A DNA stretch of 64,000 nucleotides, from NCBI RefSeq assembly GCF_000443995.1, contig NZ_AUMC01000006.1:248001-312000 (forward strand), read 5' to 3'. The notes below the pieces were generated by a model, which worked only from the letters and a program-made list of their open reading frames with translations, made no database searches and was not told the DNA's origin. The stretch is from Bacteriovorax sp. BAL6_X (GTDB lineage Bacteria; Bdellovibrionota; Bacteriovoracia; Bacteriovoracales; Bacteriovoracaceae). This document shows, piece after piece, positions 25,699-47,213 of the stretch (positions within the stretch are counted from its first letter, which is position 1; every line of letters begins with the position of its first letter). A program made the position numbers and the translations under genes.

Positions 25699-25728
25699 TT
25701 TAACTTCCTAAATCTTACACGACGCCCG

Positions 25729-27919: not shown

Positions 27920-28549
27920 TTACTTGTCCCTATATTTAAGAAAAGTCTTTGTTATTTTTTTTTCTTCGTAACGATTGTTCAATAAGAACAAGACGTTATC
28001 CGACTCAATGCAGGAATTGATATTAGTTATATCTAATCCTGTTTTATTAAAAAATATTTTTATGTCATCAATATACAAATACTTCTTGAACCTATTTTCT
28101 GGTTTAATTATCAACAACCATTTTTTATCTCCTGATAAGTAAATAATTTTATTTATATCATTTTTATAAAAATCATATTTAGAAAATAAATCTTTTACGC
28201 TATACCCATCATTCGTTGAGTTTCTTCTTAATGAAAGACACCAATGATTACACAATGCAAAAATGTAAAAAATGAATATTGAAACTATGATTAACATAAA
28301 ATGATAACCATACTCCTTATTCATAACTGTCATAATTAGGTAAAAAACGAATATTACAGAAACACATGCTAATATAGTGTGACTTATAAAATTTCTGTAT
28401 ATATACAATAGAAAATTAGTAGTGTTTCTATTTACATAACTTGTATCTATTTCCAAATTAATCTTCCCCCCGGCCCAATCAAAGTTTATATTTGGTGCAA
28501 CTGTAGTTGTAATATTACGGTTAGTTTCATTTACTGTATTTGCAAACAC
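27920..28549 (-). CDS. Orphan membrane-protein fragment (possible lost RHS/toxin tip)
   Basis: 209 residues from a GTG at 28549, but the frame stays open up to a stop at 28640-28642, adding a Gly/Ser-rich stretch (SLYGIAGGFGGAISSGINP) that looks like protein sequence. No upstream ATG or ribosome site exists, so this is most likely the truncated C-terminus of a larger protein. Two membrane helices (about 46-66 and 75-97) are followed by a basic soluble domain. Location downstream of the RHS gene on the same strand suits a displaced tip or its partner, as seen at polymorphic-toxin loci (inference). Function unknown. Confidence 0.45.
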   Translation of the reverse strand: MFANTVNETNRNITTTVAPNINFDWAGGKINLEIDTSYVNRNTTNFLLYIYRNFISHTILACVSVIFVFYLIMTVMNKEYGYHFMLIIVSIFIFYIFALCNHWCLSLRRNSTNDGYSVKDLFSKYDFYKNDINKIIYLSGDKKWLLIIKPENRFKKYLYIDDIKIFFNKTGLDITNINSCIESDNVLFLLNNRYEEKKITKTFLKYRDK

Positions 28550-28617
28550 TGAACTCGATGAGCTTGGATTTATTCCCGAGCTGATAGCACCCCCGAATCC
28601 ACCAGCAATACCATACA

Positions 28618-28740
28618 GTGATTGATTTAAATGATCTTTCTAATCTTGATCTTAGGTCTTTATATTTAAACAACGGTCTTAAAATTGATGTTAATACCCT
28701 AAGAAGACTTATCGACGGTGGAGATATGGGTGGAGGATAA
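28618..28740 (+). pseudogene. Short coding remnant, plus strand
   Basis: A 40-residue frame from GTG 28618 to TAA 28740 reads VIDLNDLSNLDLRSLYLNNG, then a LRRLIDGGDMGGG end. Composition and a regular Leu pattern look like real C-terminal protein sequence, yet it has no start context and lies antisense to the open frame of the neighbouring fragment. It looks like the 3' end of a gene left by a rearrangement. Confidence 0.4.
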
Positions 28741-28787
28741 TAATCATATTTCTCAATACACCTAAATAATTAGAAACGAATCATTAC

Positions 28788-29045
28788 CTAATAACATGAC
28801 ACATCCTCCCATCCTCTATCCATACTACTAATCTCAAGTTTTTCTTTAGTTTCTACATTTACAAGATAGATACTCACTCCATCCATGCTTTTAACTCGAT
28901 ATATCCCGCTCACCCAATTATTTTTCATACATTGACCAACTGTAAATCTTCGCGACATAGAATCACAAGAAACAATTAATATAAAAATGAGAACTTTAAT
29001 ATATGAATACAAATTACACCTCTCGTATTTAATGTACAAATTCAA
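28788..29045 (-). CDS. Small lipoprotein overlapping the RHS gene (immunity candidate)
   Basis: 85 residues. A hydrophobic segment ends in the lipobox IVSC, giving a mature lipoprotein of about 58 residues with two further cysteines (QCMKNNW and a final DVSCY). The start lies 17 nt inside the 3' end of the RHS gene, so it is translated straight after it. In polymorphic-toxin loci this is the usual position of the immunity gene; a lipoprotein would protect the periplasmic face. That role is inferred from position only, and I do not recognise the family. Confidence 0.6.
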   Translation of the reverse strand: MNLYIKYERCNLYSYIKVLIFILIVSCDSMSRRFTVGQCMKNNWVSGIYRVKSMDGVSIYLVNVETKEKLEISSMDRGWEDVSCY

Positions 29046-32000
29046 TCGGATTCATACTGTCAGGAAGCCCCATTAGTCGCAGCCCCGCACCAATTCCACC
29101 TATTATCGTATATAAGAACCATGTTTGCGAAGGTTTCTTTGATCCTCTCGCTATTGCTATAAACTGTATTGTATGAGAAAGCTCATGCACACTTAGCCCA
29201 CTTCCAAAGTTATAAGTTGTGGAGCTACCAATCGTAAGTCCACTCCCCTCTCCCATGAAAGGATCCCAAGACTCAACATAGCCTTGTAACCCATCACCAC
29301 CTAATCCTGCTACTCCCCCTTTTGCAAATATTGCAGACAAAGTAAGAAAGCTCAAAGATATACGAAAATAACTATGAAAAGCATCCCCAAAGTCACCGCC
29401 GGCTAAAGAGCTAGCTCCTGCAGCCAAAGCTGAACCAATAGCAGTAGATCCAATCGCATATAAGACATCTAAAACACCTACCATAGCACCTCCGGTAGCG
29501 TATAAAATTGTCCCCGCCACAAATGCTGCAACAAGGTCACCTGTCCAACCACCGCTTCCAGAAAAGAAGCTTTTCATCTCCTTACCAAAATCACCTAAAA
29601 ATGATTCACCAGTCGGATCAGTTAATCCCAATGGATTATTTGCGACATATACATACTTATTATTTAATGTACTAGGTAGAAGCAAGTTTCCATTATTTGG
29701 ATCTATCTGCAGAAAGCGACCGCTCTCGGGACTATAGGCCCTAGAGCGAAAATGAAATAGACTTGATTCCTCATCATATTCTCTGCCTGTAAATGTAAAG
29801 AAATTATTAATCAGAGAATTATTTGAAGAAAGAGTCTCACCGAAGACGGAGTACTTATAGGTTTCTTTAATATTACCAGATCCATCAACTATGTTAACAA
29901 TCGAGTTTAAGTGATCTTTTAAATAAAAGTAACTATTATTGTCTGCACTTCCAACTGAATCATTATTTTTTACATCATAAGAAAGTACATCATCGATTAC
30001 TGTATTTGAATGTGTAACTTTTTGAAGTAAATTATTTGATCCGTTGTATATGTGAACAATCTGTTGCCCATCATATGCAAATCGTAATATCTTAGATGTA
30101 TTATTTCTATAATTACTAACTACTTTCTCGACTCTCCGTCCTAAAGAATCAAAGGTATAGAATGACTCAATCTCTTTTTGCGTTCCTTCTTTGAAGAATT
30201 GATACCCAATCAATTGATTCTCAGAATTATAAATATACTGATGAGTATCGTTATTCTGTTTATCGATTTTACTCGAAAGGTTACCAGCATCATCAAAATA
30301 ATATAAATATTTCCAATCTTCGGTGAGGCGTTGCCCTGTTTGATCATAAGAGTAAGAGCCATTATCATCGGCAATTCTATTTCCTAAATTATCGTACTCA
30401 AAGTTTTCTAGAGGAACTCCACCACTAGAGACACCCACGAGTTGATTATTGTTGCCATAGCTGTAGTCTTCGACTGAAGAAGGTGTTCTTTTTTGAGTAA
30501 TATTTCCGATTCCATCAACTTGATAATAAAAGCTATTTATTATTCCTTGATTATTTTCATGAATAATTGATTGAACAGCATTATTATCAAAGTATGTATA
30601 TGACGATGTACTTCCGGGCCTTGTAATTTTCGACAGTCTATTTTTAGAATCGAAGTCAAAATCAAAGACCTCTCCTTTATGATTAACTAAACGTCGAAGC
30701 CTATTTATCGAATCATATTCGTAAGTATTTATCTCATCTCCATCTCTGAACTCAACACGATTTCCACGAGAGTCATAAGAGTACTCAAAATCAAGACTTG
30801 GAAGATCTGTTCTCTCCCCTACTCCAAACGTTCCAGCAACACTTACCACATCACCACTTTCTAAATGTTCGTACTCAAAATTTACTTGAGTCACATTATT
30901 ACGGGCCATTGTTAGATTTCCACGGCTATCGTATGCATATTCATATAGATTATCAGGAAGAATTTTTTTAATTAGCTCATTTGCACTATTATACTGATAT
31001 TGCTTAATGACTCCATTCGGTAGAACTTCTTTTGTGACGTTATTATTTAAGTCATATTCAAGAGATGTAACTCGACCTAAGGGATCAATTTTTTCCACTA
31101 GTCGATCTAAATTATCATAAGTAAAACTTGTAACTTTTCCATTAGGATCTAGAATATTAGCAAGTTGACCTGTTGCTGAATATGTATATGATGTTTTTTG
31201 TCCATTACCATCAGTAACAGATAGTGACCTATTAAATTCGTCATATTCTCTTAAAACATTTTGCCCTTTAGCATTTGTAATAGAAATAATATTACCGGAG
31301 GCATCTCTTACAAAGTCAGTAACGTTGCCAAGCTCATCCGAACTAGCTAGAACATTTCCGACATCACTATAAAGATATTCAACAAAAGTTCCATCCGGAT
31401 TTGTCTTCTTACTAACCAATCCCATAGAGTTGTATTCATATGAAACACTTTGGCCGATTTGATTTATTTTAGAAACGAGTTGTCCAATTTCATTATATAA
31501 ATTTTCTTCTACGACATCTCCATTTTCTGTTTTTAGAAGAAGTTGACCAAAGTCGTTATAAGTATATTTTACTCGTACACCTGTAGCTGTATCATACTTC
31601 TCAATTAAATCACTAGAGAAGCCAGCATATACAAAGGAAACTTCTGATCCATCTGGACGTTTAACAAAGACTGGACGCCCTATAGAATCTCTTTCGATTT
31701 CAGTGGTTTGCCCTTTTACATCTGTAATAGTGTTTACAAATCCAGTGAAGTCCTTTTTCATTGTAACTTCATTACCTTTCGCATCAACTAAGTAGTCTGC
31801 GATTGCAGGATCATCAAAGTCTTTTAATTCTGTCTCTTCACTTCCATTACCAACAGTATTTGATGTACCGACCTCTACAGAAGTTTGTGCACCATTAGCA
31901 CTTTCACTGCTGACAAGCTGATCGTATTCATCAAAAAAGTAACTAGTGGCAATATTGTTCTTATTAAAGCTTTGAATAACTTTTCCAGCTTCATCGTACA

Positions 32001-35000
32001 CAAACTTTTCTTTTGTTTGATCAGGATATATTATTTCTGTGAGCTTTGAGTCCTCATATACAAATTGAGTTTCTCTTTGTGCTTTATCCACAACCCTGTC
32101 CAGAAGGCCGTCGTAGTAATAGAAGTCATAAAGCTTGATATCATCTTTAATAACCTCAGTTAATAGCTCATCTTGATATTTATATTCTAGAGTTGTCCCG
32201 ATTAAGCTTTGTGATAAGTATTCTCGACCTTTGTTATCAAAGAACGTGTGAGTTCCATCACGCATAGTTAGTTTGATTTCCCCATTATCCAATCTCTCAA
32301 GAGTTGTTCCATCATTATCTTTTGTAAAGAAAGCTAGGTTGTTTACACCAGTATTTAGAATTACACGTCTAATACTTCTGTGTCCTTTATCAAAAATAAG
32401 AAGATTATTATTTTCATCTAGTGCGACTCTTTCGGGAGAGCATAGAGATGCAGATGTAGCAGGGACATTTTCTTTAATTGTAGCACGACATTCACCATCT
32501 CCTGCAACAACATAACTGTCTAAAGTTGTTAAATTAATCGCAAGAACACGATTATTTCCAGAATCAGCAACATATAATACATTTTTACTATGATCAATTG
32601 TCATCCCTTTAGGGAATGTAAGTGCCATTTCTAGAGCATGCCCACTTAATGCAATTTTCCCACCATCTAAAGTATTAAGACCTGCAATTTTTGTAATATA
32701 TCCAGCCGAGTCAATTTTACGGATATATCCATTTTCTGTAGAGATATAAACATTTCCTTGTTTATCGGCAACTATGCCATTCGGGTGATAAATACTTGCA
32801 GCAGTAGCAAGTCCACCATCTCCATTATCAAGTGTTTGTCTATTTCCAGCGAATATTTCGACAGTATTTGTCTCCATATTTACAGAACGAATTACATTGT
32901 TCCCTGAATCAACAATTAAAAGACTATTAAAAGGCGTTGATGTAAAATCTGTAATATTGTTAAACTTAGAAGAAAGTCTATCACCTGCGACATATCCAGA
33001 ATAAATTCTTTGACCAGTACTTGCAGTAGGCGTACCACATGAAACACCGTTGTATTTATTTAAATAGACATCATTTGAACATTCGAAACCAGTTGTTGCA
33101 CAGGTGGTGTTCTTATATGAATTTGAAGATGATCTACCACTACTTACTCCAGCCATATTTGCAACATTTCCAACAATGACTTCTTTAGAAGAGTCATCTA
33201 TGACAAATAAAGCACCATTAACATCTGAACCAACAAGCTTTCCTTCATCATTTTTGAAAATCTTAGAAAATACGTGACTTTGCTTATAATCGACTCTTCT
33301 ATTGTGACATCTATAACGATTACAACGTTTTGAATTTAAGAACCCACAACCATATGTACCTTCATGACGAACATAGTTATAGCCCATATAACCTTCAAAA
33401 CTTGGAGTTTGTGTTGTGCCTAGAAATTCTCCAGTATTAGAACTTAGCTCAATAACTTCTCCATTAGTCTTTGAAAGAAAGGCTGACGTGCCATCAAAAC
33501 TTGCGCTAAATATATCTTCTTCTGATGTATATACATTCTGAATAAGGTTATTAGCATAATATGTTTTTACGTCACCACTTGGCCCTTCTAAAGCTAAGAC
33601 AGCTGATTTCGGATCTAGGATTTGACTATTAATACCTAATTTCCATCCCTTCCCAAACTCAGATTTAGACTTATTTTGAACGATGACATTTCCAGAATAT
33701 GCATAAGGATAAAGCTCTTCCATTACGCTTGACTCTGGGTCTGACAATTTATTCTTTATTGTACCTGAAAGAAGATATAAAGCATTACTAGTTGGCCTTA
33801 AATAATACGTCCCAAGAGTCATTGTTTTTAATTGAATCTCATATTCTGATAAATATGGATGATAACCAGAAGCTTGATCTTTTAAATCTAAAGCATAAGA
33901 AACTACAGATTTATTAGGAACTCCTGTAAATGGGTATTTTTCACTTGTATAATCACCAACTGAAGCCCATGCCCAAAGGTTCTCAGGTTCAACCCATTGC
34001 TTCCCTTCAAAAGAAACCTCGTAACCATGTCCTTCAATTCGAGATTTTCCAAGACTCGTTCTTTCTATTTTTCTCTCTTGTTTATCAACATTGATAATAT
34101 TTGAAACAACTAATTTAGGATTTGCCCATGCACTATTGTAAACAAAACTAGGTGCAAAATCTTTTCCAGCAATTTTCATTGAAGGTATTGTTGCAGATAA
34201 AGAAAGACCATTTTTGCCAACAGTTGCACCATTAATTGCATCATCTGAAAAGCTACTTAATTTAGGAGCAATAGGAGCCACAAATACTTCTGAAAAATGT
34301 GTAATCCCACCATTTTCAACTGATTCAACAGTTTGTCCATCTTCAGAAACTTGAGATAATCCGTCAACTTCCCAAATTCCTGTATCACTATTTTTAGAAT
34401 ATACAATTAACTGAGTCTTTGGTGGAAATTCATTGTCATTTGGTAATACAAGACTTGCAGGCTCTCTAAATTTAAGCCCCGAAGGTTCTAGCGCATAAAC
34501 AAACTCAGGCTTCACGTATTCAGGAGGTGTAACATTTAAATGTTCAGACGAGAGCTTACTAACACTGATTGTCCCCGTTTCTGTTCCATCAGGGAAAACA
34601 GTATTACCTGCGGACACACTTAAAGCAAAACCTTCGACGTTAGGATTTGTTACTGTTGTAGAAGTTGTTTCATCTACAATCGTTTCATTACCATCAATTA
34701 CAAGAGGTACTAAAGTAATAGGTTTACTTAATACGTTTAACTGATTACTACCTAAAGAGAATGCCACACTTGTTTTTTGATAACGTTCTTCGTATGTCTG
34801 TTCTTCATCTACAACATTTATACCTGATGCATCAAAAGAAACCTTTTGATCCCCAGTTGCCGGATCAGAGATAGAAAAAATACCTGAAGCATCAGTAATA
34901 GCACTCTGGTTAGAGTTAATAATTGTAACAGTTACACCGGCCATTGCTTCACCGTGAATGTTCTGAACTTTACCAGAAAAAGTAGTATCAATATTATATC

Positions 35001-37161
35001 TTAATGTTACATACTCTGTACGGTCATATACACTATCTACACCCTTAAGTGTAACTTCAGACGCGATTGGAAGTTCTATTTCAAATCGCCCTCGTTCATC
35101 TGAGTTAATAGAATTAAACCCAAAGAAACCAGTAGAAATTTTAAGACCTGGCTGAGAAGCCCACTCTGCACCTGTGACTACAATTGTGTATGGATCATTC
35201 TCCTTAGGCTTTATAGAGATTAGTTCAGCTCTTAGAACTTCTAATACAATAACAGCATCTACTTCAACGACTGTTTCATTTAGCGCATAGTCAACAGCCT
35301 TAATTTTAAGGTGAAAATCCCCTTCTCTTTCGGCTGTAAAAACATGATTAATATTCAAGCGATTTGATGAAATATCAATTTCTTCATCATTTAAAAATAC
35401 CTGATAAAGATTTTCGCTACTTTTAAATTTAACTGGAAATGTAATTAAATCAATAATAGAGTCTTGAATTGGAGAAATATCACTCAACGTTGGCGCAATT
35501 GTATCTAATTCAATCGCAGGATAAGATGCCTCGTTAATATTTCCAGCACGGTCAACGACACGAACAACAATGTTATTCATTCCTTCGGATAAAGACACAA
35601 AATTACTAAAGACACTGTCTTCTACAGAATTGACTAGTTGGTTATTATTAAAAACTTCAATTTGTGTCGGAGACTTATCTGTCACAATAACGTCTGATTG
35701 AAATAATGCTTCGTTAGTAATTATCCTTTCAACATTATTTAGAGCAATTTCTGGAATTACAGTATCCCAAAAGAAAGTATATTCTAATGTATCAGTAGCA
35801 TTACCAGCATGATCAAATGCAGTAGCTTTAAATAGGTATTCACCATCTGCTAACGAGTTAAAGTCGATATTAATATCTAATACTCTGTCTTCGCCTACAT
35901 TTTGATTAATACTTGGTAGAGCAAGCTCTGTTAAAGTCCCGTCTACAACCTTAAACAGCTCAAACTTGGACTTTGTAGTATCAAGATCACCAAAATCATC
36001 ACCGGCCTGTAAATTTATAGAAAAGTCTGAATTAAAGTAATTATTCTGTCCTTCATATGAAATATGAGACCATTTTGGAGCAATTAAATCCTCAGCTACA
36101 GGAATTGTATAATCTAGAGACCCGTATACAAATTCTTTTTCAGATTTTTTACCTTTTCCTTTAAAATCAAGATTGAGTTTTTTAAGAAGATCAAGTCTTA
36201 AGCTATTGGCCTCAGAAATACTTAAAGATGATATTTCTCTGTTGATTTCCAACTCATTTCCAAAAGGTACTTCAATATATCCCGTATTAGAGATTTCAAC
36301 ACTTTTATGAAATAGAGACAATGCATACTGATTTAGCCCATCATCTTCAAATGACTTATCATGCTTATCATTTTTCTCATCAATTTCAGGAAACCAAAAG
36401 CTTTTCTCTGATAGGTTCTTAGATTTCGCTTCAACATTTACACTTCTACCTTCAATTGGTGATCCTAGTGGTACTCTTAGAGACATTTTATGTCCTGAGT
36501 AAAAACTAGAATAATAGAATGGAAAAGATATTTGATTATCGACTTGAAGTGGTACTTTTATCTGAGCTAAAACAGAAGTATCCTCTTCAACTAAACTATC
36601 AATATTTTTAGATACTCTTTCTAGCCTAGATTTAAGCTGCTCTAACCACTCAACTAAACGGTCTGTTAATACGCGCCCTTCTAGTTTTGCTATTCTTTTT
36701 TCCACTAAAAGAATTCTCTTATTTAGCTTGGCTTGGAGTTTTTCATACTTCTTTATTCTTTTATCTTCTTTAGCAACTAAGATATGAAGAGTATTTTCTG
36801 TACCAGTGCTAAGCTCTGGCGTAGAAAAACTCCATTTATATTCATGGCCATGCTTCGTCACCTGAAGCTGGTTAGTCACTTCTGTCATTGCATCTGGAAA
36901 ATAAGCTCTTATAGAAACATTACCATCTAACGTTGCTCTACACTTTTGTTTATTATGAATAGAAGAATATTTCGAAACACAAATTGAACCTGATAGTTCA
37001 GTTGTTGAGCCTGAATCATGCTTAACATCATTAGGTGCTGGTGTATCGTACTTAATAACAACACCCTTTCTATTATACTTTGATCCAACAAATGCCAAAG
37101 AACTTAGTGAGATTGAAAATAATAAAATAAGCTTAGTGAATAAGTTTCTATTCATGATCAT
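29029..37161 (-). CDS. Giant teneurin-like RHS/YD-repeat protein with metallopeptidase-like tip
   Basis: 2710 residues. A signal peptide (NLFTKLILLFSISLSSLAF) is followed by a coiled coil (about 130-190), Ig-like strands (about 380-660, with WDTVIPEI and LDTIAPTLSD repeats), a carboxypeptidase-regulatory-like domain (about 727-790), NHL propeller repeats (about 1400-1590, PNGIVADKQGNVYIS), dozens of YD repeats (about 1620-2430) and the RHS core end (GREYDEESSLFHFRSR, SGRFLQIDP, LTDPTGE). The DPTG motif separates a 190-residue tip, with two or three hydrophobic helices and VHELSHTIQ (HELSH at 2659-2663), a zinc-peptidase motif known from RHS tips. RHS cages shelter such tips. AGGACG upstream fits the second ATG (37155) better than the first. 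It is preceded by a small lipoprotein gene and followed by the immunity candidate. Confidence 0.9.
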   Translation of the reverse strand: MIMNRNLFTKLILLFSISLSSLAFVGSKYNRKGVVIKYDTPAPNDVKHDSGSTTELSGSICVSKYSSIHNKQKCRATLDGNVSIRAYFPDAMTEVTNQLQVTKHGHEYKWSFSTPELSTGTENTLHILVAKEDKRIKKYEKLQAKLNKRILLVEKRIAKLEGRVLTDRLVEWLEQLKSRLERVSKNIDSLVEEDTSVLAQIKVPLQVDNQISFPFYYSSFYSGHKMSLRVPLGSPIEGRSVNVEAKSKNLSEKSFWFPEIDEKNDKHDKSFEDDGLNQYALSLFHKSVEISNTGYIEVPFGNELEINREISSLSISEANSLRLDLLKKLNLDFKGKGKKSEKEFVYGSLDYTIPVAEDLIAPKWSHISYEGQNNYFNSDFSINLQAGDDFGDLDTTKSKFELFKVVDGTLTELALPSINQNVGEDRVLDINIDFNSLADGEYLFKATAFDHAGNATDTLEYTFFWDTVIPEIALNNVERIITNEALFQSDVIVTDKSPTQIEVFNNNQLVNSVEDSVFSNFVSLSEGMNNIVVRVVDRAGNINEASYPAIELDTIAPTLSDISPIQDSIIDLITFPVKFKSSENLYQVFLNDEEIDISSNRLNINHVFTAEREGDFHLKIKAVDYALNETVVEVDAVIVLEVLRAELISIKPKENDPYTIVVTGAEWASQPGLKISTGFFGFNSINSDERGRFEIELPIASEVTLKGVDSVYDRTEYVTLRYNIDTTFSGKVQNIHGEAMAGVTVTIINSNQSAITDASGIFSISDPATGDQKVSFDASGINVVDEEQTYEERYQKTSVAFSLGSNQLNVLSKPITLVPLVIDGNETIVDETTSTTVTNPNVEGFALSVSAGNTVFPDGTETGTISVSKLSSEHLNVTPPEYVKPEFVYALEPSGLKFREPASLVLPNDNEFPPKTQLIVYSKNSDTGIWEVDGLSQVSEDGQTVESVENGGITHFSEVFVAPIAPKLSSFSDDAINGATVGKNGLSLSATIPSMKIAGKDFAPSFVYNSAWANPKLVVSNIINVDKQERKIERTSLGKSRIEGHGYEVSFEGKQWVEPENLWAWASVGDYTSEKYPFTGVPNKSVVSYALDLKDQASGYHPYLSEYEIQLKTMTLGTYYLRPTSNALYLLSGTIKNKLSDPESSVMEELYPYAYSGNVIVQNKSKSEFGKGWKLGINSQILDPKSAVLALEGPSGDVKTYYANNLIQNVYTSEEDIFSASFDGTSAFLSKTNGEVIELSSNTGEFLGTTQTPSFEGYMGYNYVRHEGTYGCGFLNSKRCNRYRCHNRRVDYKQSHVFSKIFKNDEGKLVGSDVNGALFVIDDSSKEVIVGNVANMAGVSSGRSSSNSYKNTTCATTGFECSNDVYLNKYNGVSCGTPTASTGQRIYSGYVAGDRLSSKFNNITDFTSTPFNSLLIVDSGNNVIRSVNMETNTVEIFAGNRQTLDNGDGGLATAASIYHPNGIVADKQGNVYISTENGYIRKIDSAGYITKIAGLNTLDGGKIALSGHALEMALTFPKGMTIDHSKNVLYVADSGNNRVLAINLTTLDSYVVAGDGECRATIKENVPATSASLCSPERVALDENNNLLIFDKGHRSIRRVILNTGVNNLAFFTKDNDGTTLERLDNGEIKLTMRDGTHTFFDNKGREYLSQSLIGTTLEYKYQDELLTEVIKDDIKLYDFYYYDGLLDRVVDKAQRETQFVYEDSKLTEIIYPDQTKEKFVYDEAGKVIQSFNKNNIATSYFFDEYDQLVSSESANGAQTSVEVGTSNTVGNGSEETELKDFDDPAIADYLVDAKGNEVTMKKDFTGFVNTITDVKGQTTEIERDSIGRPVFVKRPDGSEVSFVYAGFSSDLIEKYDTATGVRVKYTYNDFGQLLLKTENGDVVEENLYNEIGQLVSKINQIGQSVSYEYNSMGLVSKKTNPDGTFVEYLYSDVGNVLASSDELGNVTDFVRDASGNIISITNAKGQNVLREYDEFNRSLSVTDGNGQKTSYTYSATGQLANILDPNGKVTSFTYDNLDRLVEKIDPLGRVTSLEYDLNNNVTKEVLPNGVIKQYQYNSANELIKKILPDNLYEYAYDSRGNLTMARNNVTQVNFEYEHLESGDVVSVAGTFGVGERTDLPSLDFEYSYDSRGNRVEFRDGDEINTYEYDSINRLRRLVNHKGEVFDFDFDSKNRLSKITRPGSTSSYTYFDNNAVQSIIHENNQGIINSFYYQVDGIGNITQKRTPSSVEDYSYGNNNQLVGVSSGGVPLENFEYDNLGNRIADDNGSYSYDQTGQRLTEDWKYLYYFDDAGNLSSKIDKQNNDTHQYIYNSENQLIGYQFFKEGTQKEIESFYTFDSLGRRVEKVVSNYRNNTSKILRFAYDGQQIVHIYNGSNNLLQKVTHSNTVIDDVLSYDVKNNDSVGSADNNSYFYLKDHLNSIVNIVDGSGNIKETYKYSVFGETLSSNNSLINNFFTFTGREYDEESSLFHFRSRAYSPESGRFLQIDPNNGNLLLPSTLNNKYVYVANNPLGLTDPTGESFLGDFGKEMKSFFSGSGGWTGDLVAAFVAGTILYATGGAMVGVLDVLYAIGSTAIGSALAAGASSLAGGDFGDAFHSYFRISLSFLTLSAIFAKGGVAGLGGDGLQGYVESWDPFMGEGSGLTIGSSTTYNFGSGLSVHELSHTIQFIAIARGSKKPSQTWFLYTIIGGIGAGLRLMGLPDSMNPIEFVH

Positions 37162-37181
37162 ACGTCCTGCTATTATTTTAA

Positions 37182-37457
37182 TTAATTAGTTGCTGAAGAG
37201 TTTGAATTAGCTAAAGCTAGTAGTTCTTGATAGTCTTCATCCGAAATTGCCCCATCAGCTTTCAAGTTATCTAATTCTGATTTAGATAAGATATATGGGG
37301 TTTCTTTTAAAGCTTCTTTAAATTGAGCGATTTCTTCTGACTTTGACTGTGAGAATGATTTATTACTACTAGAGACCTTTGGGCCATCTCCTGTTCCAGA
37401 GTTACAGCTAAAAAGTAAAAAAGAACAAAAAACTAAAACTATGAATGAATTCTTCAT
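37182..37457 (-). CDS. Small lipoprotein upstream of the RHS gene
   Basis: 91 residues. The signal ends with lipobox LFSC and the mature part is Ser/Asn-rich at first, then helical (KSELDNLKADGAISDEDYQELLALA), which resembles short SHOCT/EF-hand-like helix pairs in bacterial lipoproteins. It ends 20 nt before the RHS start on the same strand, so the two form an operon. A role in surface delivery or folding of the RHS protein is a guess from position. Confidence 0.7.
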   Translation of the reverse strand: MKNSFIVLVFCSFLLFSCNSGTGDGPKVSSSNKSFSQSKSEEIAQFKEALKETPYILSKSELDNLKADGAISDEDYQELLALANSNSSATN

Positions 37458-37788
37458 TTATCCCTCATCAAATATTTATATTTAATTGAGTATCGGGCAC
37501 AACAAATTCTTCTGAAAAAGAAAGTTTATTTTTCTTTAAAATAGGCAATAAATTCGATAACTTACATTGCAAAACTCAAGAAATCGCACGACTTGCACAC
37601 ACAAAGGCTATTCTAACAACGGCTTTCCGAAGTTGTTTCTAAAGATACTCTTAAGAAAAAGAGCTTTTTATCAAAATGGAATTTAAAAACATTGGATAAA
37701 AACACAAAATATTGGCAATTTTCTCAAAATGAAACGCACCTAATCAAAGGCACGCTCCGTTGTAGCATAGCTAACTTTTAACAACCTT
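37458..37788. other. Intergenic region, 331 nt
   Basis: A+T-rich DNA upstream of the lipoprotein-RHS operon and downstream of the DUF3892 gene. It must hold the operon promoter, but no clear -35/-10 pair was found. A GGCACG...TTGT string near 37750 resembles a sigma-54 site, but the spacing is wrong. Confidence 0.4.
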
Positions 37789-38049
37789 TTAACAAGGAGG
37801 TAAGTTATCTAAGTTGTTCGAGCTATAGTTATCTGGGGCAGTCGTTAAATACTCACTCCCCCCGTTTGACTTAACTAGAACATCTACCTTGTTCCCACCT
37901 ACTTTAACAAAATAAGCATAACTTCCAGACTTAATGTCTGAAATTACCTCTGATGCTTTCCTCGGGGACCAGTAATTACCAGCATTACATACACCGGTAA
38001 TGTTGTCGCGAGTGTCCTTTTGGACTCGTTTGATTTCTCTACTTAGCAT
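37789..38049 (-). CDS. DUF3892 family protein
   Basis: 86 residues. The end pattern (YLTTAPDNYSSNNLDNLPPC) and the YAYFVKVGGNKVDVLV strand are diagnostic of DUF3892, small proteins of unknown function that are often found near mobile or defence loci. A GGAG ribosome site lies just before the ATG. It is divergent from the XRE-type regulator, with 136 bp between starts. Confidence 0.85.
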   Translation of the reverse strand: MLSREIKRVQKDTRDNITGVCNAGNYWSPRKASEVISDIKSGSYAYFVKVGGNKVDVLVKSNGGSEYLTTAPDNYSSNNLDNLPPC

Positions 38050-38185
38050 AATAACTCCTTTAAAAAATCTAAAACATTAGTAAAGTCAACCTTTTACATT
38101 TAGTAGACATTTATATCAATTTTATTTTCTAATATTGAAAAAAATATAGACGATAAGTTATTTAGAAAACTTTGAGTGGTAATTT

Positions 38186-38977
38186 ATGAGCTATAAAAAC
38201 TTTAATGAATTGTTATTTTGCAAGAATCTTAAAAAATTAAGAAAGTCATCTGGCTATACACAGGCACAGGTGGAAGCGAAGCTAGACTTAAGGCCAATGG
38301 CAATCTTCGATTTTGAAAGAGGAAGAATAAAACTTAATATTGAAACAGCAATACAGCTAGCAAATCTATATGACTGTTCACTAGAAGAAATATACTCAAT
38401 TGAAAAAGAAAAAAACAATACAGAAACAAAGGAAACATCAGATTTACGTTTCCTGCCAGTACTTCAAACAGGAATTTCAAATAAGAACTACTACATAATA
38501 CATCATCACCTCATAACTGATCCAATAATCATGGCCGATCTTGGCCTTAATGAAGTCCCTCTTAGAAAATCACCATTTGATAGGATTACAGATAAGCTAA
38601 CAGAGAACCAAAAAAGAAAAGTAACAATTGAAGTACTAAAATATATGAGTTCTTTAATAAATATAGACAATAAAATAACGACTGAAGAGAAGATTATATT
38701 TAATGAATTAATGAGTTCTCTTAGTTTTCCTCTTACAGAACAAGAAAAATCATCAATAAACAGAGCGAATAAGAAAGTTTACCTAGGAAAGACATCTCCA
38801 AAGTATTTCAAAACTGATGCAATAAAGCGATTCTTAGTATGGCTTCTAATAATCACTGCAAAATCTGATAATGACTTCGCAGAAGAAGAGGAAAGCTATA
38901 TAAAAAGGATAGTTCAGCATATAGGTCTAAGGCTTGAAGACTTCCACTATATTAAAAAGAAAGTTATAAGTATTTAA
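38186..38977 (+). CDS. XRE-family regulator with TerB-like C-terminal domain
   Basis: 263 residues. Residues 10-70 form a helix-turn-helix of the XRE/HTH_3 type (SGYTQAQVEAKLDLRPMAIFDFERGR). After a linker, residues about 145-255 are helical with NIDNKITTEEKIIFNELM and KSDNDFAEEEESYIKRI, two acidic repeats spaced as in TerB/DjlA-like domains, which can bind metal. The combination suggests a regulator that reads a cellular signal through TerB. It faces the DUF3892 gene and may control the shared intergenic region. Confidence 0.75.
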   Translation: MSYKNFNELLFCKNLKKLRKSSGYTQAQVEAKLDLRPMAIFDFERGRIKLNIETAIQLANLYDCSLEEIYSIEKEKNNTETKETSDLRFLPVLQTGISNKNYYIIHHHLITDPIIMADLGLNEVPLRKSPFDRITDKLTENQKRKVTIEVLKYMSSLINIDNKITTEEKIIFNELMSSLSFPLTEQEKSSINRANKKVYLGKTSPKYFKTDAIKRFLVWLLIITAKSDNDFAEEEESYIKRIVQHIGLRLEDFHYIKKKVISI

Positions 38978-39008
38978 CAAAAAGCAGTAACTTTAACATA
39001 TACCTTCT

Positions 39009-40022
39009 TTAACTTTTTAGAATATTTTTTAGTCTAGATTCACTCTCACAAACGAGTAATTCAATCTCTGATTCAGTTAAAGGCTTTCTATTACCAAATC
39101 TTTTTTTATTAATATAATAATCTATTACTGTATCGATATTCTTTTCATTCTCTAAATATTTAAAATCAAAATTCCTTATACTTAATGAAACTCTATTATT
39201 CTCAACTTTTATCAATGATGGCTTTAGAATATCAAACAATTCTTTTATAGAGTGCTCGAAGGTACAGATATAACAGTATTTTGCAACTGTAGGAAGTGAT
39301 GAGCCAAAAAAGTCTTCAATCATTCGAATAAAATATAAATCTCTAGATGTAGCTTTTAAATTACTGGAACATTTCATGAAAGAAGAATTCAACTCTATTT
39401 TAAAAAAAGAATTAAACTTATTAAAAAAATAATGTATCGCTAAAATCTCCTCAACACCCATTTTATTTCTTATTTTTTCATCTATAAAGTTTAAAAACTC
39501 CTCCATCTTTTTAGGTACACTTTTTTTACTAGTTTTATGGATCAAAAACATTTCAATTAAACAAATATAACTTATCTTCATTGCAAGCCCCATGGACTTA
39601 GCTGTAGGCCAGCTATTTAACTTTTGTTTAAGAATTGATAAGGAAATTTCTTCTACAGAGTTTGAATTGTATTTTTCACAATAAAACCTAAAAGTCTCAT
39701 CACAAATAGTAACACTTCCAGACTCTAAAAACTGATCATTATTGAGCATTAAAACCCTATTAATGTTTATTAATGAGTCTAAAGAGCTCTTAATAAAGTC
39801 ATTAGGTCCATTATTTAATAATGACTCCAATAGGTAAAAGTTATAGTTAAAGTCCCATTTTGACTTTGCAGTGAATGTTAATAGATCATGAACGAGTAAG
39901 GATCTATCATCATGCTCTTTTGAATAATTTATATTATTAAAATATAGATCTAAATTACCGACTATATTTGAATCAAGTAATAACACTGGAGTATTATTTA
40001 TTTCTTTAATCGGTTTATTATT
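39009..40022 (-). pseudogene. PIN-like protein gene, 3' part, split by IS3 element
   Basis: The larger part of a gene cut by the insertion element at 40026-41264. The frame is open into the element; a GTG at 39986 could restart it, giving 325 residues. PVLLLDSNIVGN looks like the first strand and acidic residue of a PIN-type nuclease fold, and the rest is helical and A+T-rich, with further acidic residues. Removing the element and one copy of the AAC duplication joins this part in frame with the 5' part at 41268-41507 to give about 407-418 residues. No other family signal. Activity of the truncated protein is doubtful. Confidence 0.7.
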
Positions 40023-40056
40023 AACTGGACTTCCCCACGAATAGTGGACACTTAGT

Positions 40057-40963
40057 TTAAGCGCTTAGCGCTGATAATTCATACTCCAATGGACTTTTGT
40101 TATCAAGTGAAGAATGAATTCTTTTTCTATTATACCAACTTTCTATATACTCAAATATTTCAAACTTCAAATGCTTTTCACTTAAGAAATTTTGATTCCA
40201 CAATAATTCACTCTTGATCGTCTTAAAAAATGTTTCTACAAATGCATTATCATAACAATTTCCTCTTCTGCTCATACTACCTCTAATTTTATATTTTTTA
40301 AGAGTATCTCTAAATCCTATGCTCTTATATTGAGCTCCTTGGTCAGAATGAAAGACTGATGCTACTTCTCGTTCTCGCTTACAGGCGTTCTCTAGGGCCT
40401 TAATTACACCGATAGAGCTTAGCGTTTCATCAATTGACCATCCAACTATCTTTCTTCTCTTCAGGTCCATCACTACAGACAAATAAAGAAACTTATTATC
40501 CACTGGGATATATGTAATATCTCCCGCCCACACTTCATTTCGTTTAAACTCTTTATTTTCTTCAATCTTAAAGATACGCTCGTGAGCTTCATTTGAAACT
40601 CTCTCATCAAGTGAGACAGCTTTAAAACTCTTCTTTTTTCTCGCTGCAAGACCTTCCTCATTCATAAGCTTTGCGATTGTATTCTCAGAAATACTGATCC
40701 CCTTACTCTTCAAGTAAATATGTATTCGAGGAGAGCCGTACCTGCCCTTAAACTTCTTAAATGTATTCTTAACTAAGCCTCTGTACTCGCTCAAGGTGAT
40801 ATTCCGCCTTGAGGCAGTCCTCCTCAGCCAAGCATAGTAGCCACTACGACTTACTGAGAAGTGATCACAAAGAAAAGTAAGGCTTATCTCACTTGATAGC
40901 GCCTGAATTACTTGAAAGGTGGAAATTCGTCCTGAGAAAAGATCGCTGTGCTTTTTTTTAGAA
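40057..40963 (-). CDS. IS3-family transposase OrfB (via -1 frameshift)
   Basis: About 298 codons of open frame. It holds the HTH_21 segment (HFSVSRSGYYAWLRR), YGSPRIHIYLK and the DDE catalytic core: Asp in WAGDITYIP, Asp in HSDQGAQY and Glu in FVETFFKTIKSE. No good start codon exists at the beginning of the frame; an internal TTG at 40794 begins too late. The A8 run at 40952-40959 (CTA AAA AAA AGC in orfA) lets ribosomes slip back one base and make an OrfAB fusion of about 381 residues, the active transposase in this family. Confidence 0.93.
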
Positions 40964-41201
40964 CATCATTAATCTTTTTCAAGTATTGAATTTCTTTTTG
41001 AAGTCTTTTATTTTCTTTTAAGAGGTCTGTTTCTGTTTTTCTTGAAGACGATGTTGAAGAGAGTATTTTCTTTTGCCAATTTCTGATCGACATCTCAGAA
41101 ACACCTAGCTCCTGGGCGGCCTTAATAATTCCAAGCTCTTTTGATAATTCGACAGCATTCTGCTTGAATTCATCAGTGTAGCTGTTCTTTTTCTTAGTCA
41201 T
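40908..41201 (-). CDS. IS3-family OrfA (helix-turn-helix protein)
   Basis: 97 residues. KNSYTDEFKQNAVELSKELGI and AQELGVSEMSIRNWQKK are the HTH_Tnp_1 DNA-binding signature, followed by a leucine-zipper coiled coil (about 60-85). It binds the terminal repeats and, alone, acts as a regulator. GGAGAGGG lies just before the ATG. The A8 frameshift site is in its last 15 codons. Confidence 0.95.
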   Translation of the reverse strand: MTKKKNSYTDEFKQNAVELSKELGIIKAAQELGVSEMSIRNWQKKILSSTSSSRKTETDLLKENKRLQKEIQYLKKINDVLKKSTAIFSQDEFPPFK

Positions 41202-41267
41202 ATCCCTCTCCTAGTGGTGATTATACCACATGTTGAAAGTGTCTACTTTTGGTGGGGAAGTCCAAAC

Positions 41268-41507
41268 AACATACTCGTAATCAAATATATAAGGTTGAAA
41301 ATTTTCCATCATAGAATCAATATATAGTTTTTTCTTCCCTCTTTGGAAGTATTTATCAACATTAAAAGAACTAGGAAGTTTCTTATATTTTGTATTGAAG
41401 TCTACAAAAAAAGTGTCCTTACGTTTAAATTTTGAAAAATAGGATTTTATGAATTCATCTGGTTCTACTCTCATATAATATAAATTTAACATAAAAATAA
41501 GTTTCAA
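41268..41507 (-). pseudogene. PIN-like protein gene, 5' part, split by IS3 element
   Basis: The first 70-80 codons of the gene continued at 39009-40022. Possible starts are TTG 41507, ATG 41492 and ATG 41474; none has a strong ribosome site. The protein part ends ...FDYEYVV at the target duplication, then the frame runs into the element. It joins in frame to NNKPIKEINNTPVLLLDSN on the other side. Confidence 0.7.
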
Positions 41508-41686
41508 TCCAAAGTATATTTAACTTTAGAATACAGTATTCAAAAATCTAAAGATTAACCAAATTAAGTAAACAGCCTTCCATATTATCTAAAGTACATT
41601 AAGTATTTAGATAATATGGAAGCTAATAAATTTAATAATAAAGTCGCAAGCGACTTAAGAGTATTCATCAAATCTCCCTTTAGTCG
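41508..41686. other. Intergenic with 17-bp inverted repeat
   Basis: CTTCCATATTATCTAAA (41577-41593) and its exact complement (41606-41622) are separated by 12 nt. It lies about 65 nt past the stop of the XRE gene. The stem is A+T-rich and has no following T-run, so it could be a weak terminator or a protein-binding dyad. Confidence 0.6.
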
Positions 41687-42040
41687 CTAAAAACTTTCCA
41701 AAATCGCATTAATAGTCTTTAGCTTTTCTTTATCAAGCCTCTTCAAAATTTCAACACAATCAGCGTACGTATTCTCAGGCAGAGGAACACTCTTATTTAC
41801 TAAAGCAATAAATTCTTCATAGCTGTAACCAAGCCCATTTAATACCTTTAGTATTAAAGTAGGATTAAGGTCACAACGGCCATTTTCAGTATGGTTTAAT
41901 TTAGTATCAGAAATACCAATGACTTTTGCAGCTTTCCTAATAGATAATTTCCGAGACTCTCTTAAGTATTTTAAGACACTGGCCTCTTTGGTTATGATCT
42001 TGTGATCACTTCTTCTTACTTTCTTCTTTGTTGTTTTCAT
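41687..42040 (-). CDS. XRE-family transcriptional regulator
   Basis: 117 residues. Residues 22-76 form a helix-turn-helix of the XRE type (LRESRKLSIRKAAKVIGISDTKLNHTENGR, with a regular recognition helix). The C-terminal tail (about 40 residues) is helical. Basic N-terminus. The promoter region carries two copies of a 10-bp palindrome, one on each side of the likely -35/-10, so autoregulation is likely. GGAG is 6 nt before the ATG. It may be the master regulator of the island. Confidence 0.88.
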   Translation of the reverse strand: MKTTKKKVRRSDHKIITKEASVLKYLRESRKLSIRKAAKVIGISDTKLNHTENGRCDLNPTLILKVLNGLGYSYEEFIALVNKSVPLPENTYADCVEILKRLDKEKLKTINAILESF

Positions 42041-42083
42041 AAAACATCTCCATAAAAAATTAACGAAGATGCCCTTTGTTTGT

Positions 42084-42149
42084 TACACGTGTAGTCCTTG
42101 TTATAATAGAGACTTATCCTTATTTTTAAGGGTACCTCCTACACGTGTA
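42084..42149 (-). promoter_or_regulatory. Promoter with two TACACGTGTA operators
   Basis: Identical sites TACACGTGTA(GTCC) lie at 42084-42093 and 42140-42149, 56 bp apart. Between them, read on the minus strand, TTAAAA and TATAAC are spaced by 18 nt as a -35/-10 pair directed at the XRE gene. One operator is upstream of the -35 box and one just downstream of the -10 box, an arrangement typical of autorepression, perhaps with looping. Confidence 0.65.
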
Positions 42150-42436
42150 GTCCAAATAGAGACGACTAAATTTTTGAACTAAGCCAAAACTAAGCCAACG
42201 AGAGTAATGTCGAGACATTTCCAGTAACATTGGCAGTGGGCGACTTGAACTAACCTACTGAAAGTTAATTGAAATGATTTAAAATTCTTATGAATTAAAT
42301 GTGGTGATTCCACCAAAACCCTTGCGAATTTTGGTAAGGGTGATTTCTAGATTGCAAAGTTGGTTCACCTGACCTCCCATACTGGTCGGTCGGCGTTGTT
42401 CAGCGTCATTTTGCCATCGTGGCAAATGCCGCTTCC
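42150..42436. other. Non-coding stretch, possible right edge of island
   Basis: 287 nt without a gene. It contains a repeated AACTAAGCCA string, a small hairpin (TTTGCCATCGTGGCAAA, 42411-42427) and a minus-strand stretch that faintly resembles a tRNA 3' half (GTTCAAGTCGCCCACTGCCA) but cannot form a T-stem. Nothing firm is seen. Confidence 0.35.
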
Positions 42437-42463
42437 AAAAAAAAGCCGGATCAGGGATCCGGC
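42437..42463 (-). terminator. Strong rho-independent terminator
   Basis: On the minus strand GCCGGATC, a 3-nt loop and GATCCGGC form a perfect 8-bp stem followed by eight T residues. It ends the candidate small RNA, and could also terminate read-through from the 81-residue protein gene upstream. Confidence 0.92.
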
Positions 42464-42527
42464 TTCTTAAAGAGAGACATTTTGACGGAGTGAAAAAATC
42501 CTTTCTTCTGCTCCAACACACACACGT
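42437..42527 (-). ncRNA. Candidate sigma-54-dependent small RNA (about 90 nt)
   Basis: A consensus sigma-54 promoter (42537-42553, minus strand) predicts a start near 42527, and a strong rho-independent terminator ends transcription near 42437. The transcript has no convincing gene: only a short MSLFKKPDP frame, which runs into the terminator. The 5' part has a GUGUGUGUGUUGGAG stretch and a possible GGAG/CUCC stem, and the middle is unstructured (AAAAUGUCUCUCUUUAAG), which could pair with target mRNAs. Qrr RNAs of Vibrio show the same logic of sigma-54 control. The RNA itself is predicted and not shown. Confidence 0.55.
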
Positions 42528-42536
42528 TTATATATA

Positions 42537-42553
42537 AGCAAGGCCCGTGCCAA
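42537..42553 (-). promoter_or_regulatory. Consensus sigma-54 promoter
   Basis: Minus strand reads TTGGCACGGGCCTTGCT, with GG and GC 10 nt apart, matching TGGCACG-N4-TTGC at every fixed base. It points away from the 81-residue gene and toward a terminator about 100 nt on. It requires an enhancer-binding protein with ATPase activity; a dyad suitable as its upstream site lies at 42615-42636. Confidence 0.8.
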
Positions 42554-42614: not shown

Positions 42615-42636
42615 GTGTCATATTCATGACTGACAC
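42615..42636. promoter_or_regulatory. Possible enhancer (UAS) dyad
   Basis: GTGTCA, 10 nt, TGACAC: a perfect 6-bp dyad centred about 98 bp upstream of the predicted small-RNA start, within the usual range for sigma-54 activators. It lies between the promoter and the stop codon of the 81-residue gene. Confidence 0.4.
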
Positions 42637-42653: not shown

Positions 42654-42899
42654 TTAAATTGACTTCACTGACTTTAAAAAGCGAGAAAGTTTCATCATGC
42701 CAATGTCGCAAGCTTCTGTTTCATCCTCTGCGTTAAAAACTTGATCTACATGTTTGAAAATTTTTTTCGTCTCTTTATAGACGATTGCAATATCTGCGTT
42801 GAATCCACGAGATGTTTTATTAACTTCAATCTGACCAATGAGATTGTCATTATTTTGTAAAGTTACATAAAAATCTTTCGGATAATCATTTTGTTTCAT
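42654..42899 (-). CDS. Hypothetical small cytoplasmic protein
   Basis: 81 residues, no signal or membrane segment. It is likely one alpha/beta domain: two strands (DFYVTLQNNDNLIGQIEV and GFNADIAIVYKE) and a final helix with DETEACDIGMMKLSRFLK. It is divergent from the YceI-family gene with 34 bp between starts. Not recognised; a cold-shock-independent or regulatory role cannot be inferred. Confidence 0.6.
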   Translation of the reverse strand: MKQNDYPKDFYVTLQNNDNLIGQIEVNKTSRGFNADIAIVYKETKKIFKHVDQVFNAEDETEACDIGMMKLSRFLKSVKSI

Positions 42900-45424: not shown

Positions 45425-45614
45425 GCGATGGACGAAGTCCTAGCAGCGACAACACGCTCCTTCCTATCAACAAAACCAGCGATGGACGAAGTCCTAGCAG
45501 CGACAACACGCTCCTTCCTATCAACAAAACCAGCGATGGACGAAGTCCTAGCAGCGACAACACGTCCCTCTCCCATCAACAAAACCAGCGATGGACGAAG
45601 TCCTAGCAGCGACA
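45425..45614. repeat. 54-bp tandem repeat, about 3.5 copies
   Basis: Copies start at 45425, 45479, 45533 and 45588; the first two are identical, the third has small changes and the fourth is partial. Each unit holds the palindrome GGACGAAGTCC and a stem AGCG...CGCT. The region is clearly more G+C-rich than its surroundings. It lies between the terminator of the exported-protein gene and a structured element at the ffh end. Frames through it are open on both strands only because 54 is a multiple of three. Confidence 0.85.
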
Positions 45615-45665: not shown

Positions 45666-45774
45666 TTAATTCTTTAAGGCTTGCTTCGGATGCTAGCGTA
45701 AGACGAGGGAAGGCGTAGTTTGCTACGCCGACCGAAGTCAGGCGCAGCAGACGGAGTGAGACCTAAAGAATTAA
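45666..45774. repeat. Structured element bounded by 13-bp inverted repeats
   Basis: TTAATTCTTTA(A)GG at 45666-45679 and CCTAAAGAATTAA at 45762-45774 enclose about 80 bp with a G+C-rich hairpin (GGCGTAG/CTACGCC at 45712-45729). The right end overlaps the ffh stop codon. It resembles a small MITE-like or long-hairpin element, or an extended ffh 3' structure. Confidence 0.5.
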
Positions 45775-47213
45775 AAGAAGCCACCGCCCCATGGGCCGCC
45801 CTTCTTGCGAGGCTTTTTCTTTTTCCCACCAAGACCAGGAAGATTAGGCATTCCACCTCCCCCCATTCCAGGCATACCAGGCATCCCCGGCATTCCTCCA
45901 CCTTTCATCATTTGAGAAAGGCCACCCATCATTTGCTCCATTTGCTTAAATTTAGCAATGAAGTCTCGTACCTGAGCTTCAGTATTTCCTGAACCTTTTG
46001 CAATTCGTTTGATGTGAGAGTCTTTCATGATCTTATAATTATCGCGCTCTTTCTTCGTCATCGAGTTGATAATAACGCGCATTCTTTTCATTTCATTTTC
46101 AGCAGGAGTTAAGTCCCCTACTTGTTTAAGCATACCACCCATACCAGGGATCATTTTCATAATTGATGCCATCGAACCTAAGTTCTTCATCATATCCATT
46201 TGCTTCATGAAGTCGTTAACAGAGAATTTACCTTTCTCTAGACGCTTCATCATTCCCTCGGCATCATCTTTGTCAATTGCAGCTTCTGCTTTTTCAACAA
46301 GAGTTAGAACATCTCCCATATCAAGAATTCGTCCCGCAAGACGATCAGGGTGAAAGAGTTCCAGATCTTTCATTTTTTCACCTGTTGAGATGAACTTAAT
46401 TGGTACGCCTGTTACGTGCTTAATTGAAAGTGCGGCACCACCACGAGCATCTGAATCCATTTTTGAAAGAACAACACCAGTAAGTCCTACGGCCTCGTGA
46501 AAGCTCTTAGCAACATTTACGGCCTCTTGACCAGTCATTGCATCTGCAACCATTAGAACTTCAGGATTAAGACCTTCTAGGCTTTGACGAACTTCTTTGA
46601 TTTGCCCCATTAGTTCTTCATCAACGTGAAGACGTCCGGCCGTATCAATGATAACGATTTCTTTACCGTGCTCTTTTGCGTAGGCCATGGCATCAGCAGC
46701 GATATCCTTAGGGTGCTTCCCAAGGTCTGAATCGAACCAATCCATATTCATTGACTTAGCAAGAGTGATTAGCTGGTCCTTAGCAGCAGGTCTGAAAGTA
46801 TCGGCCGGAACAAGGAGAACGTTCTTCTTTTCTTTCTTTGTTAAGAAAAGTGAAAGCTTACCAGAAAAAGTTGTCTTACCTTGACCGTTTAGACCAACAA
46901 CAAGAATTGGAGTAATACCACCCTCAACATAGTTAAGTTCAGTATTCTTATCCCCCATTGTTTTTGCAAGTTCATCATGAACGATCTTGATGAATTGCTC
47001 TTCAGGGTTAACACCTTTGATAACTTTTTCACCGAGAGCTTCTTCTTTAACGTTGTTAATAAAATTCTTTACAACCTTAAAGTTAACATCAGCTTCTAGG
47101 AGCGCAGTCTTTACAAGTTTTAGAGTATCCTCAATATTGCTTTCAGTAATCTTTCCCTTACCCGAGATATTCTTAAACGCTTCTGAAAACTTATCACTTA
47201 AATTATCAAACAT
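45771..47213 (-). CDS. ffh: Signal recognition particle protein (SRP54)
   Basis: 480 residues, near the usual length. N domain (1-85), then the GTPase: G1 VVGLNGQGKTT (105-115), G2/insertion VPADTFRPAAKDQL, G3 DTAGRLHVDEEL, G4 as LSKMDSDARGG (normally TKMDGDARGG). The M domain (about 300-440) is Met-rich and binds signal peptides and 4.5S RNA (IKRIAKGSG). The C-terminal tail has GMPGMPGMPGMGGGGMPNLPG repeats and a basic end. It delivers nascent membrane and secreted proteins to FtsY. Confidence 0.98.
   Translation of the reverse strand: MFDNLSDKFSEAFKNISGKGKITESNIEDTLKLVKTALLEADVNFKVVKNFINNVKEEALGEKVIKGVNPEEQFIKIVHDELAKTMGDKNTELNYVEGGITPILVVGLNGQGKTTFSGKLSLFLTKKEKKNVLLVPADTFRPAAKDQLITLAKSMNMDWFDSDLGKHPKDIAADAMAYAKEHGKEIVIIDTAGRLHVDEELMGQIKEVRQSLEGLNPEVLMVADAMTGQEAVNVAKSFHEAVGLTGVVLSKMDSDARGGAALSIKHVTGVPIKFISTGEKMKDLELFHPDRLAGRILDMGDVLTLVEKAEAAIDKDDAEGMMKRLEKGKFSVNDFMKQMDMMKNLGSMASIMKMIPGMGGMLKQVGDLTPAENEMKRMRVIINSMTKKERDNYKIMKDSHIKRIAKGSGNTEAQVRDFIAKFKQMEQMMGGLSQMMKGGGMPGMPGMPGMGGGGMPNLPGLGGKKKKPRKKGGPWGGGFF

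Follow-up and report, generated by a model that had tools for sequence, protein, structure and literature searches.

Comparative evidence for a sigma-54-controlled small RNA of Bacteriovoracaceae, probably CsrA-bound, with a predicted replication regulon

The locus and its surroundings

The window, by which we mean the whole 64,000-nt stretch of DNA that was analysed, comes from a 3.23-Mb assembly of Bdellovibrionota. On its minus strand, the promoter TTGGCACGGGCCTTGCT is followed after about 10 nt by CGUGUGUGUGUUGGAGCAGAAGAAAGGAUUUUUUCACUCCGUCAAAAUGUCUCUC and then, past a short spacer, by an intrinsic terminator ending at 42437 (Table 1). The exact sigma-54 -24/-12 match that the first-pass annotation had claimed here was borne out: TGGCACGN4TTGCW occurs exactly once in the window, as TTGGCACGGGCCTTGCT, while 4.9 matches would be expected by chance for the promoter pattern with up to two mismatches. 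The annotation had further described a perfect 8-bp stem with eight T residues. The T run stands; the stem is longer than was claimed, with 10 Watson-Crick pairs that the fold extends further. Its statement that no protein gene lies between promoter and terminator agrees with our finding of no credible overlapping ORF. A 77-aa GTG ORF (42288-42521, minus) was rejected as the product, since it crosses the terminator and the relatives showed no conserved reading frame.

The 92-nt RNA folds with -28.4 kcal/mol (z = -2.95), and one of 200 shuffled sequences folded as well or better. Its near-invariant parts are the GUGUGUGU tail, the hairpin with a CsrA-type AAGGAU loop, and UGUCUCUC. No Rfam family matched the RNA above the gathering score; a weak match to SorY (29.8 bits, with 111 needed) was taken as coincidence, and Qrr gave no gathering match and was absent among the weak matches too. 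A search of the window for tRNA and tmRNA found none, and the terminator had no match in a viral collection. Within the incomplete coverage of our literature search, nothing relevant was found in the way of earlier reports of this RNA.

In relatives, the RNA is flanked on one side by the gene of a small 81-aa protein, or else of a lipoprotein, and on the other by an arginase-family gene in convergent orientation, behind which comes a GYF-domain gene. The 81-aa protein has no Pfam match. In the source genome, about 20 kb (22500-42430) separate the sRNA terminator from the arginase gene, apparently as an insertion directly downstream of the sRNA. This segment harbors a 2710-aa RHS/teneurin-NHL protein (29029-37161), an IS3-type transposase pair (40057-41201) and Xre regulators. 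On the other side of the sRNA, a tandem repeat of 54 bp (45425-45614, 3.5 copies, 97% matches) lies between a hypothetical gene and a signal-recognition-particle-like GTPase gene (45771-47213).

Table 1. Positions of the putative sRNA, its elements, neighboring genes and the clearest predicted target
Feature	Position	Strand	Remarks
Palindrome GTCATGAATATGAC, GTCA-N6-TGAC	42617-42630	minus	FleQ-box-like; presumed enhancer-binding-protein site
Sigma-54 promoter TTGGCACGGGCCTTGCT	42553-42537	minus	-24 GG, -12 GC; exact consensus
Small RNA, about 90 nt	42526-42437	minus	Start (about 42526) inferred from the -12 element
5' tail GUGUGUGUGU, single-stranded seed A	42516-42525	minus	Near-invariant in alignments
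Hairpin 1	42487-42514	minus	Outer GGAG/CUCC, inner GAAGAAA-GGA-UUUUUUC, apical GGA
Hexaloop AAGGAU in hairpin 1	42498-42503	minus	CsrA-type site by sequence
CUCCGUCAAAAUGUCU	42475-42490	minus	16-nt perfect complement to the ribosome-binding region of the HNH gene in the same genome
UGUCUCUC, single-stranded seed B	42472-42479	minus	Invariant in alignments
Intrinsic terminator AAGCCGGATC-CCT-GATCCGGCTT-T8	42465-42437	minus
81-aa protein	42654-42899	minus	Upstream of sRNA; homologue in 33 compared loci
Arginase-family gene	21624-22499	plus	Usual convergent neighbor downstream of sRNA in relatives; here about 20 kb off
GYF-domain gene	20227-21600		In window
HNH-domain gene	L128:1501-2004 = G000:C6:541489-541992	minus	Clearest target in source genome

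Conservation, sigma-54 control and the GGA hairpin

With promoter plus RNA as the query, blastn gave a match in 35 of 97 relatives, nearly all of the matches spanning both parts. A covariance model was then restricted to the RNA core, leaving out promoter and terminator to serve as independent tests. It finds the core in 96 of 129 Bacteriovoracaceae genomes and in none of 240 other genomes sampled from the phylum outside this family. The named carriers include Bacteriovorax, Halobacteriovorax, other Bacteriovoracaceae and some genomes filed under Bdellovibrio or Oligoflexia. The RNA is nearly always single-copy; two copies were present in one contaminated assembly.

Among 58 distinct RNA copies, GG-N10-GC is kept in 57, the sole exception (L074) having GT in place of GC. 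The promoter starts with TTGGCA in 56 of them and lies 9-12 nt from the GUGUG tail. A terminator (hairpin and T run) is present in each of the 58, with differing stem sequences. A chance promoter match is ruled out by this conservation, as seen in the blastn matches, the model matches and the retained GG-N10-GC. Loss of the GG and GC elements in relatives, which the first-pass annotation had named as disproof of its proposal, was thus not seen in 57 of the 58 copies.

The hairpin shows compensatory changes. In an alignment of 52 distinct sequences fitted to the structure, which favours a positive outcome, 35 double-change cells were counted against 14.4 in shuffles; none of 500 shuffles reached as high a value, and slid controls were exceeded as well. 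The first 20 sequences had been uninformative, and the result became positive only with the 52 distinct ones. From a plain alignment, RNAalifold recovered the inner hairpin alone because the terminator misaligns. The conserved promoter-terminator block with compensatory changes, looked for at the suggestion of the first-pass annotation, is therefore present, with 57 of 58 promoters, 58 of 58 terminators and the excess of double changes. On these comparative grounds, we regard an RNA gene under sigma-54 control as close to certain, and the RNA is apparently switched on by sigma-54.

RpoN is encoded in the source genome (PF04552 at G000:C3:502572, E 1.9e-62) and present in 51 of the 57 genomes searched. 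Upstream of the promoter, GTCA/TGAC sites occur 57 times in the 58 copies, compared to 32 matches in 1160 random 150-nt windows. In 39 of 58 copies, the halves of the palindrome are separated by a spacer of exactly 6, and no copy has a spacer of 0-5 or 7-9. The positions of the palindrome differ by multiples of 10-11 bp, roughly a turn of the helix; paired sites are 31-33 bp apart. Such helical phasing and pairing of sites is the usual behaviour of enhancer-binding-protein sites, which we presume them to be. The palindrome together with the sigma-54 promoter pattern was found in 43 of 124 genomes (backward control 0). The FleQ box of Pseudomonas is a 14-bp GTCA-N6-TGAC palindrome, GTCaNTAAAtTGAC (PMC8125075, PMC10723142), with the same core as the upstream palindrome; the inner bases vary here. 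We take this likeness as a lead, not as an identification of the activator. Another near-consensus sigma-54 promoter in the window, TTGGCACACTTGTTGCT (56601-56617, plus), lies about 50 nt before an ORF without a Pfam family (56665-57729).

The search for palindrome plus promoter also matches genomes in which the covariance model finds no RNA. There, the predicted transcripts of divergent homologues lack UGUCUCUC and have one or two hairpins, for example GAGAAAAGGGAUUUUCUC, UGAAAAUGGAUUUUCA and GAGAAAACGGAAUUUCUC. An apical GGA loop is present in the best fold of all 58 RNA copies, and across all forms the hairpin loop is constant in A-N-GGA, where N is A, G, U or C. The site rule of CsrA/RsmE is ANGGAN (PMC7652899), and that of Campylobacter CsrA is mAwGGAs (PMC6692469). 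One GGA hairpin is present per RNA here, two in the divergent g32 and g48 forms. In the divergent sRNAs of L108-L112, two ANGGAN hairpins stand in tandem and antisense seeds are missing; tdk leaders of those genera have no CA element. In genus g3 (L114-L117), a small lipoprotein-like gene follows the arrangement of GTCA-N6-TGAC and sigma-54 promoter, and in L114-L116 the leader forms a hairpin with ACGGA or AAGGA in its loop.

CsrA is encoded in 115 of 124 family genomes, and csrA of the source genome is close to fliW and flagellar genes. Hfq (PF17209) was found in none of 58 Bacteriovoracaceae genomes by a search that was positive in control genomes. Since Hfq is not recognisable and CsrA is present, CsrA probably binds the hairpin, as a chaperone or as a titrated partner. 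The loop rule, the near-universal CsrA and the missing Hfq together make such binding likely, and we consider a CsrA partnership of the RNA probable. The flagellin leader in the window (6085-6115, minus) contains AUCACGGAGGUAUCACA, in which an ANGGA motif covers the ribosome site; CsrA-FliW control of flagellin would predict this.

Predicted targets

From the two near-invariant single-stranded segments follow two predicted target sites, ACACACAC and GAGAGA(C). We searched for both with the pattern ACACACACN{2,32}GAGAGA, scored against backward controls. In 89 genomes that carry the sRNA, this double motif gave 106 matches against 35 in controls; in 30 genomes without the sRNA, there were 9 matches and 8 in controls. 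The enrichment is thus confined to genomes with the sRNA. By a simple rule, 42 of 50 fetched matches lie at most 30 nt ahead of an ORF of at least 80 aa, a few of them, such as L142, L146 and L151-L153, being doubtful. By Pfam names, the predicted target genes encode DnaA (L149, L186), thymidylate synthase (thyA), thymidine kinase (tdk), deoxynucleoside kinase, class II ribonucleotide reductase, RecA, ScpA, ScpB and an SMC-type ATPase, besides a ParB-N protein, a tyrosine recombinase, DksA, a PHP-domain protein with a DnaE-like start and some membrane proteins.

The leader of tdk provides a separate comparison. ACACAC precedes tdk in 36 of 48 genomes with the sRNA and in 2 of 22 without it (p = 2e-7), one of these two being from a genus in which the RNA occurs. 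Counted by genus, the numbers are 13 of 22 and 1 of 13 (p = 0.004). No genome has GUGUGU before tdk on the sense strand, hence the ACACAC signal is strand-specific. Nine genera with the sRNA have no CA element before tdk, which counts against the target reading. In most targets, the CA element is 5' of GAGAGA, an order that does not allow simple antiparallel pairing of one RNA with both segments. We regard base pairing with a replication-centred regulon as well supported by these comparisons.

Within the source genome, targets were sought in a 464-kb sample and by orthologue. The strict double motif gave no match there (one in the control), and the case for targets relies on the HNH gene, on 7-nt matches ahead of tdk and on weaker runs of CA. 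The HNH leader has ACACACAACACAC and AGACATTTTGACGGAG, and the 16-nt perfect complement of the RNA covers its Shine-Dalgarno sequence. The gene has its own consensus sigma-54 promoter, TTGGCACGCCCTTTGC, and relatives are similar: in G002, G003, G015 and G097, the orthologue leaders contain a CA run and a GAGAG-type ribosome site, each behind a sigma-54-like promoter. The sRNA and its HNH target may therefore share one signal. In a whole-RNA duplex scan of 359 genes, HNH ranks first, but shuffled RNAs reach similar energies. The tdk leader of the source genome contains AGAGACA and CAACACA, while those of G001 and G003 contain GAGACATT. Leaders of dnaA are CA-rich in G001, G002 and G003, and weakly so in the source genome. 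A further possible target in the window is the gene for a di-haem cytochrome c peroxidase (24321-25634), whose leader reads GGGACACACACAAAATG (25635-25650, minus).

Proposed mechanism, rival explanations and related systems

We consider it likely that the locus encodes a sigma-54-driven trans-acting antisense RNA of Bacteriovoracaceae, probably bound by CsrA, that represses a replication regulon. Gene, promoter, upstream site, conserved structure and the target enrichment tied to presence of the RNA are shown by the sequences; the steps that follow are our inference. An enhancer-binding protein at GTCA-N6-TGAC would activate transcription of the sRNA from the sigma-54 promoter. The resulting RNA of about 90 nt would expose two segments for pairing, the 5' tail GUGUGUGUGU and UGUCUCUC together with its flank, one on each side of the A-N-GGA-N hairpin, to which CsrA would bind as chaperone or titrated partner. 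The partners of these segments would be CA-rich stretches and GAGAGA(C)/Shine-Dalgarno sequences directly ahead of the start codons of targets, and the core regulon would consist of genes for DNA replication and recombination, for the supply of dNTPs and for chromosome segregation. Because pairing would take place on or next to ribosome-binding sites, a translation block is the simplest outcome, so that pairing over the ribosome site would most likely be repressive. Activation of targets instead may also occur.

How far CsrA is needed can be argued. The RNA might work as an antisense RNA without it, the GGA hairpin being a structural or RNase-protection element. Every target result holds regardless of CsrA, and selection with E. 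coli CsrA did not favour very stable stems (PMC7652899). We nevertheless regard this as rather unlikely, since in divergent homologues A and GGA are invariant and N is variable, and no Hfq is there to aid pairing. The opposite extreme, a pure CsrA-titrating RNA of the Csr/Rsm type under sigma-54 with single-stranded parts that serve stability alone, we hold to be improbable. It draws on the same loop, which follows the RsmE/CsrA rule with variable N in all copies and in divergent homologues devoid of seeds (PMC7652899), and on the near-universal CsrA, encoded beside fliW in the source genome, together with the failure to find Hfq. It leaves unexplained the invariant GUGUGUGU and UGUCUCUC and the complementary sites linked to the sRNA, and a single site on each RNA would be sparse for a sponge.

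The target sites themselves might belong to some other factor, such as a translation enhancer or an RNA-binding protein, and their match to the sRNA be coincidental. CA-rich leaders can boost translation in other bacteria, and the two elements stand in an order ill suited to pairing at the same time. Yet the enrichment occurs only in genomes with the sRNA, at similar control rates, and in GAGACATT and the 16-nt extension the match to the sRNA goes past the short motif, which makes this explanation quite improbable. Finally, a micropeptide mRNA (ATGTCTCTC... reads MSL...) is hardly credible, for although ATG stands at that position in most copies, others have TTG or GTG there, neither the sequence nor the length of the peptide is conserved, the frame enters the terminator and a ribosome site is missing at the usual distance.

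The antisense RNA proposed here belongs with sigma-54-driven sRNAs, and to our knowledge its combination of features has not been described together before. CrcZ and NrsZ are likewise transcribed from sigma-54 promoters, and the Qrr RNAs are Hfq-dependent quorum-sensing RNAs. The first-pass annotation had given Qrr as the known example of a sigma-54 sRNA, which was too narrow, as GlmY (PMC6075780) and Pxr (PMC5568312) exist as well. Like our candidate, Qrr of Vibrio is short, acts in trans and depends for its transcription on sigma-54 and an activating enhancer-binding protein (PMC10162802); the two have no sequence relation over the Rfam threshold, and here Hfq is not found and the predicted targets are different. 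Pxr of Myxococcus, a developmental gatekeeper RNA of about 100 nt with an apparent sigma-54 promoter, also comes from a host with a switching life cycle (PMC5568312), but it is a triple stem-loop beside nla19 and differs in synteny and structure. GlmY of E. coli shares the sigma-54 promoter with upstream activator sites (PMC6075780); it works via RapZ and GlmZ on glmS, and a CsrA-type hairpin or replication targets are not known for it. The antagonists CsrB/RsmY/RsmZ have hairpins with ANGGAN loops as well (PMC7652899), yet they carry many GGA motifs, whereas here a single one accompanies the antisense seeds, and certain divergent homologues have two. In Bacillus subtilis, CsrA promotes base pairing of SR1 (PMC8501984), as it may do here, although sequence, promoter and targets of SR1 are different.

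Phase-specific non-coding RNAs of a related predator are known from Bdellovibrio bacteriovorus, namely attack-phase sRNAs and merRNA (PMC3627812). In the part of that report available to us none is described as sigma-54-driven, and our covariance model finds no copy of the RNA studied here outside Bacteriovoracaceae. The attack phase of Bdellovibrio is described as non-replicative (PMC3627812), and repression of replication genes by a sigma-54 signal would hence suit a predatory life cycle. In its fullest form, our proposal is that, in predators without Hfq, one CsrA-presented sigma-54 RNA serves as an antisense master switch of chromosome replication. The genes dnaA and those for dNTP synthesis, recombination and condensin would be silenced while the predator is free-living in attack phase, so that replication is held off outside prey; inside prey, the RNA would be off. 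This we put forward tentatively, as something that may hold and falls short of probable.

Predators of this phylum are believed to refrain from replication during the hunt, and the mechanism of this hold-back is largely open. A conserved RNA with predicted dnaA, nucleotide-synthesis and condensin targets makes it directly testable. If our assumptions are true, Bacteriovoracaceae possess a base-pairing RNA system without Hfq, possibly with CsrA instead, and sigma-54 and the CsrA-FliW system would be joined to the cell cycle. The RNA would then probably help to decide when the presumed predator replicates.
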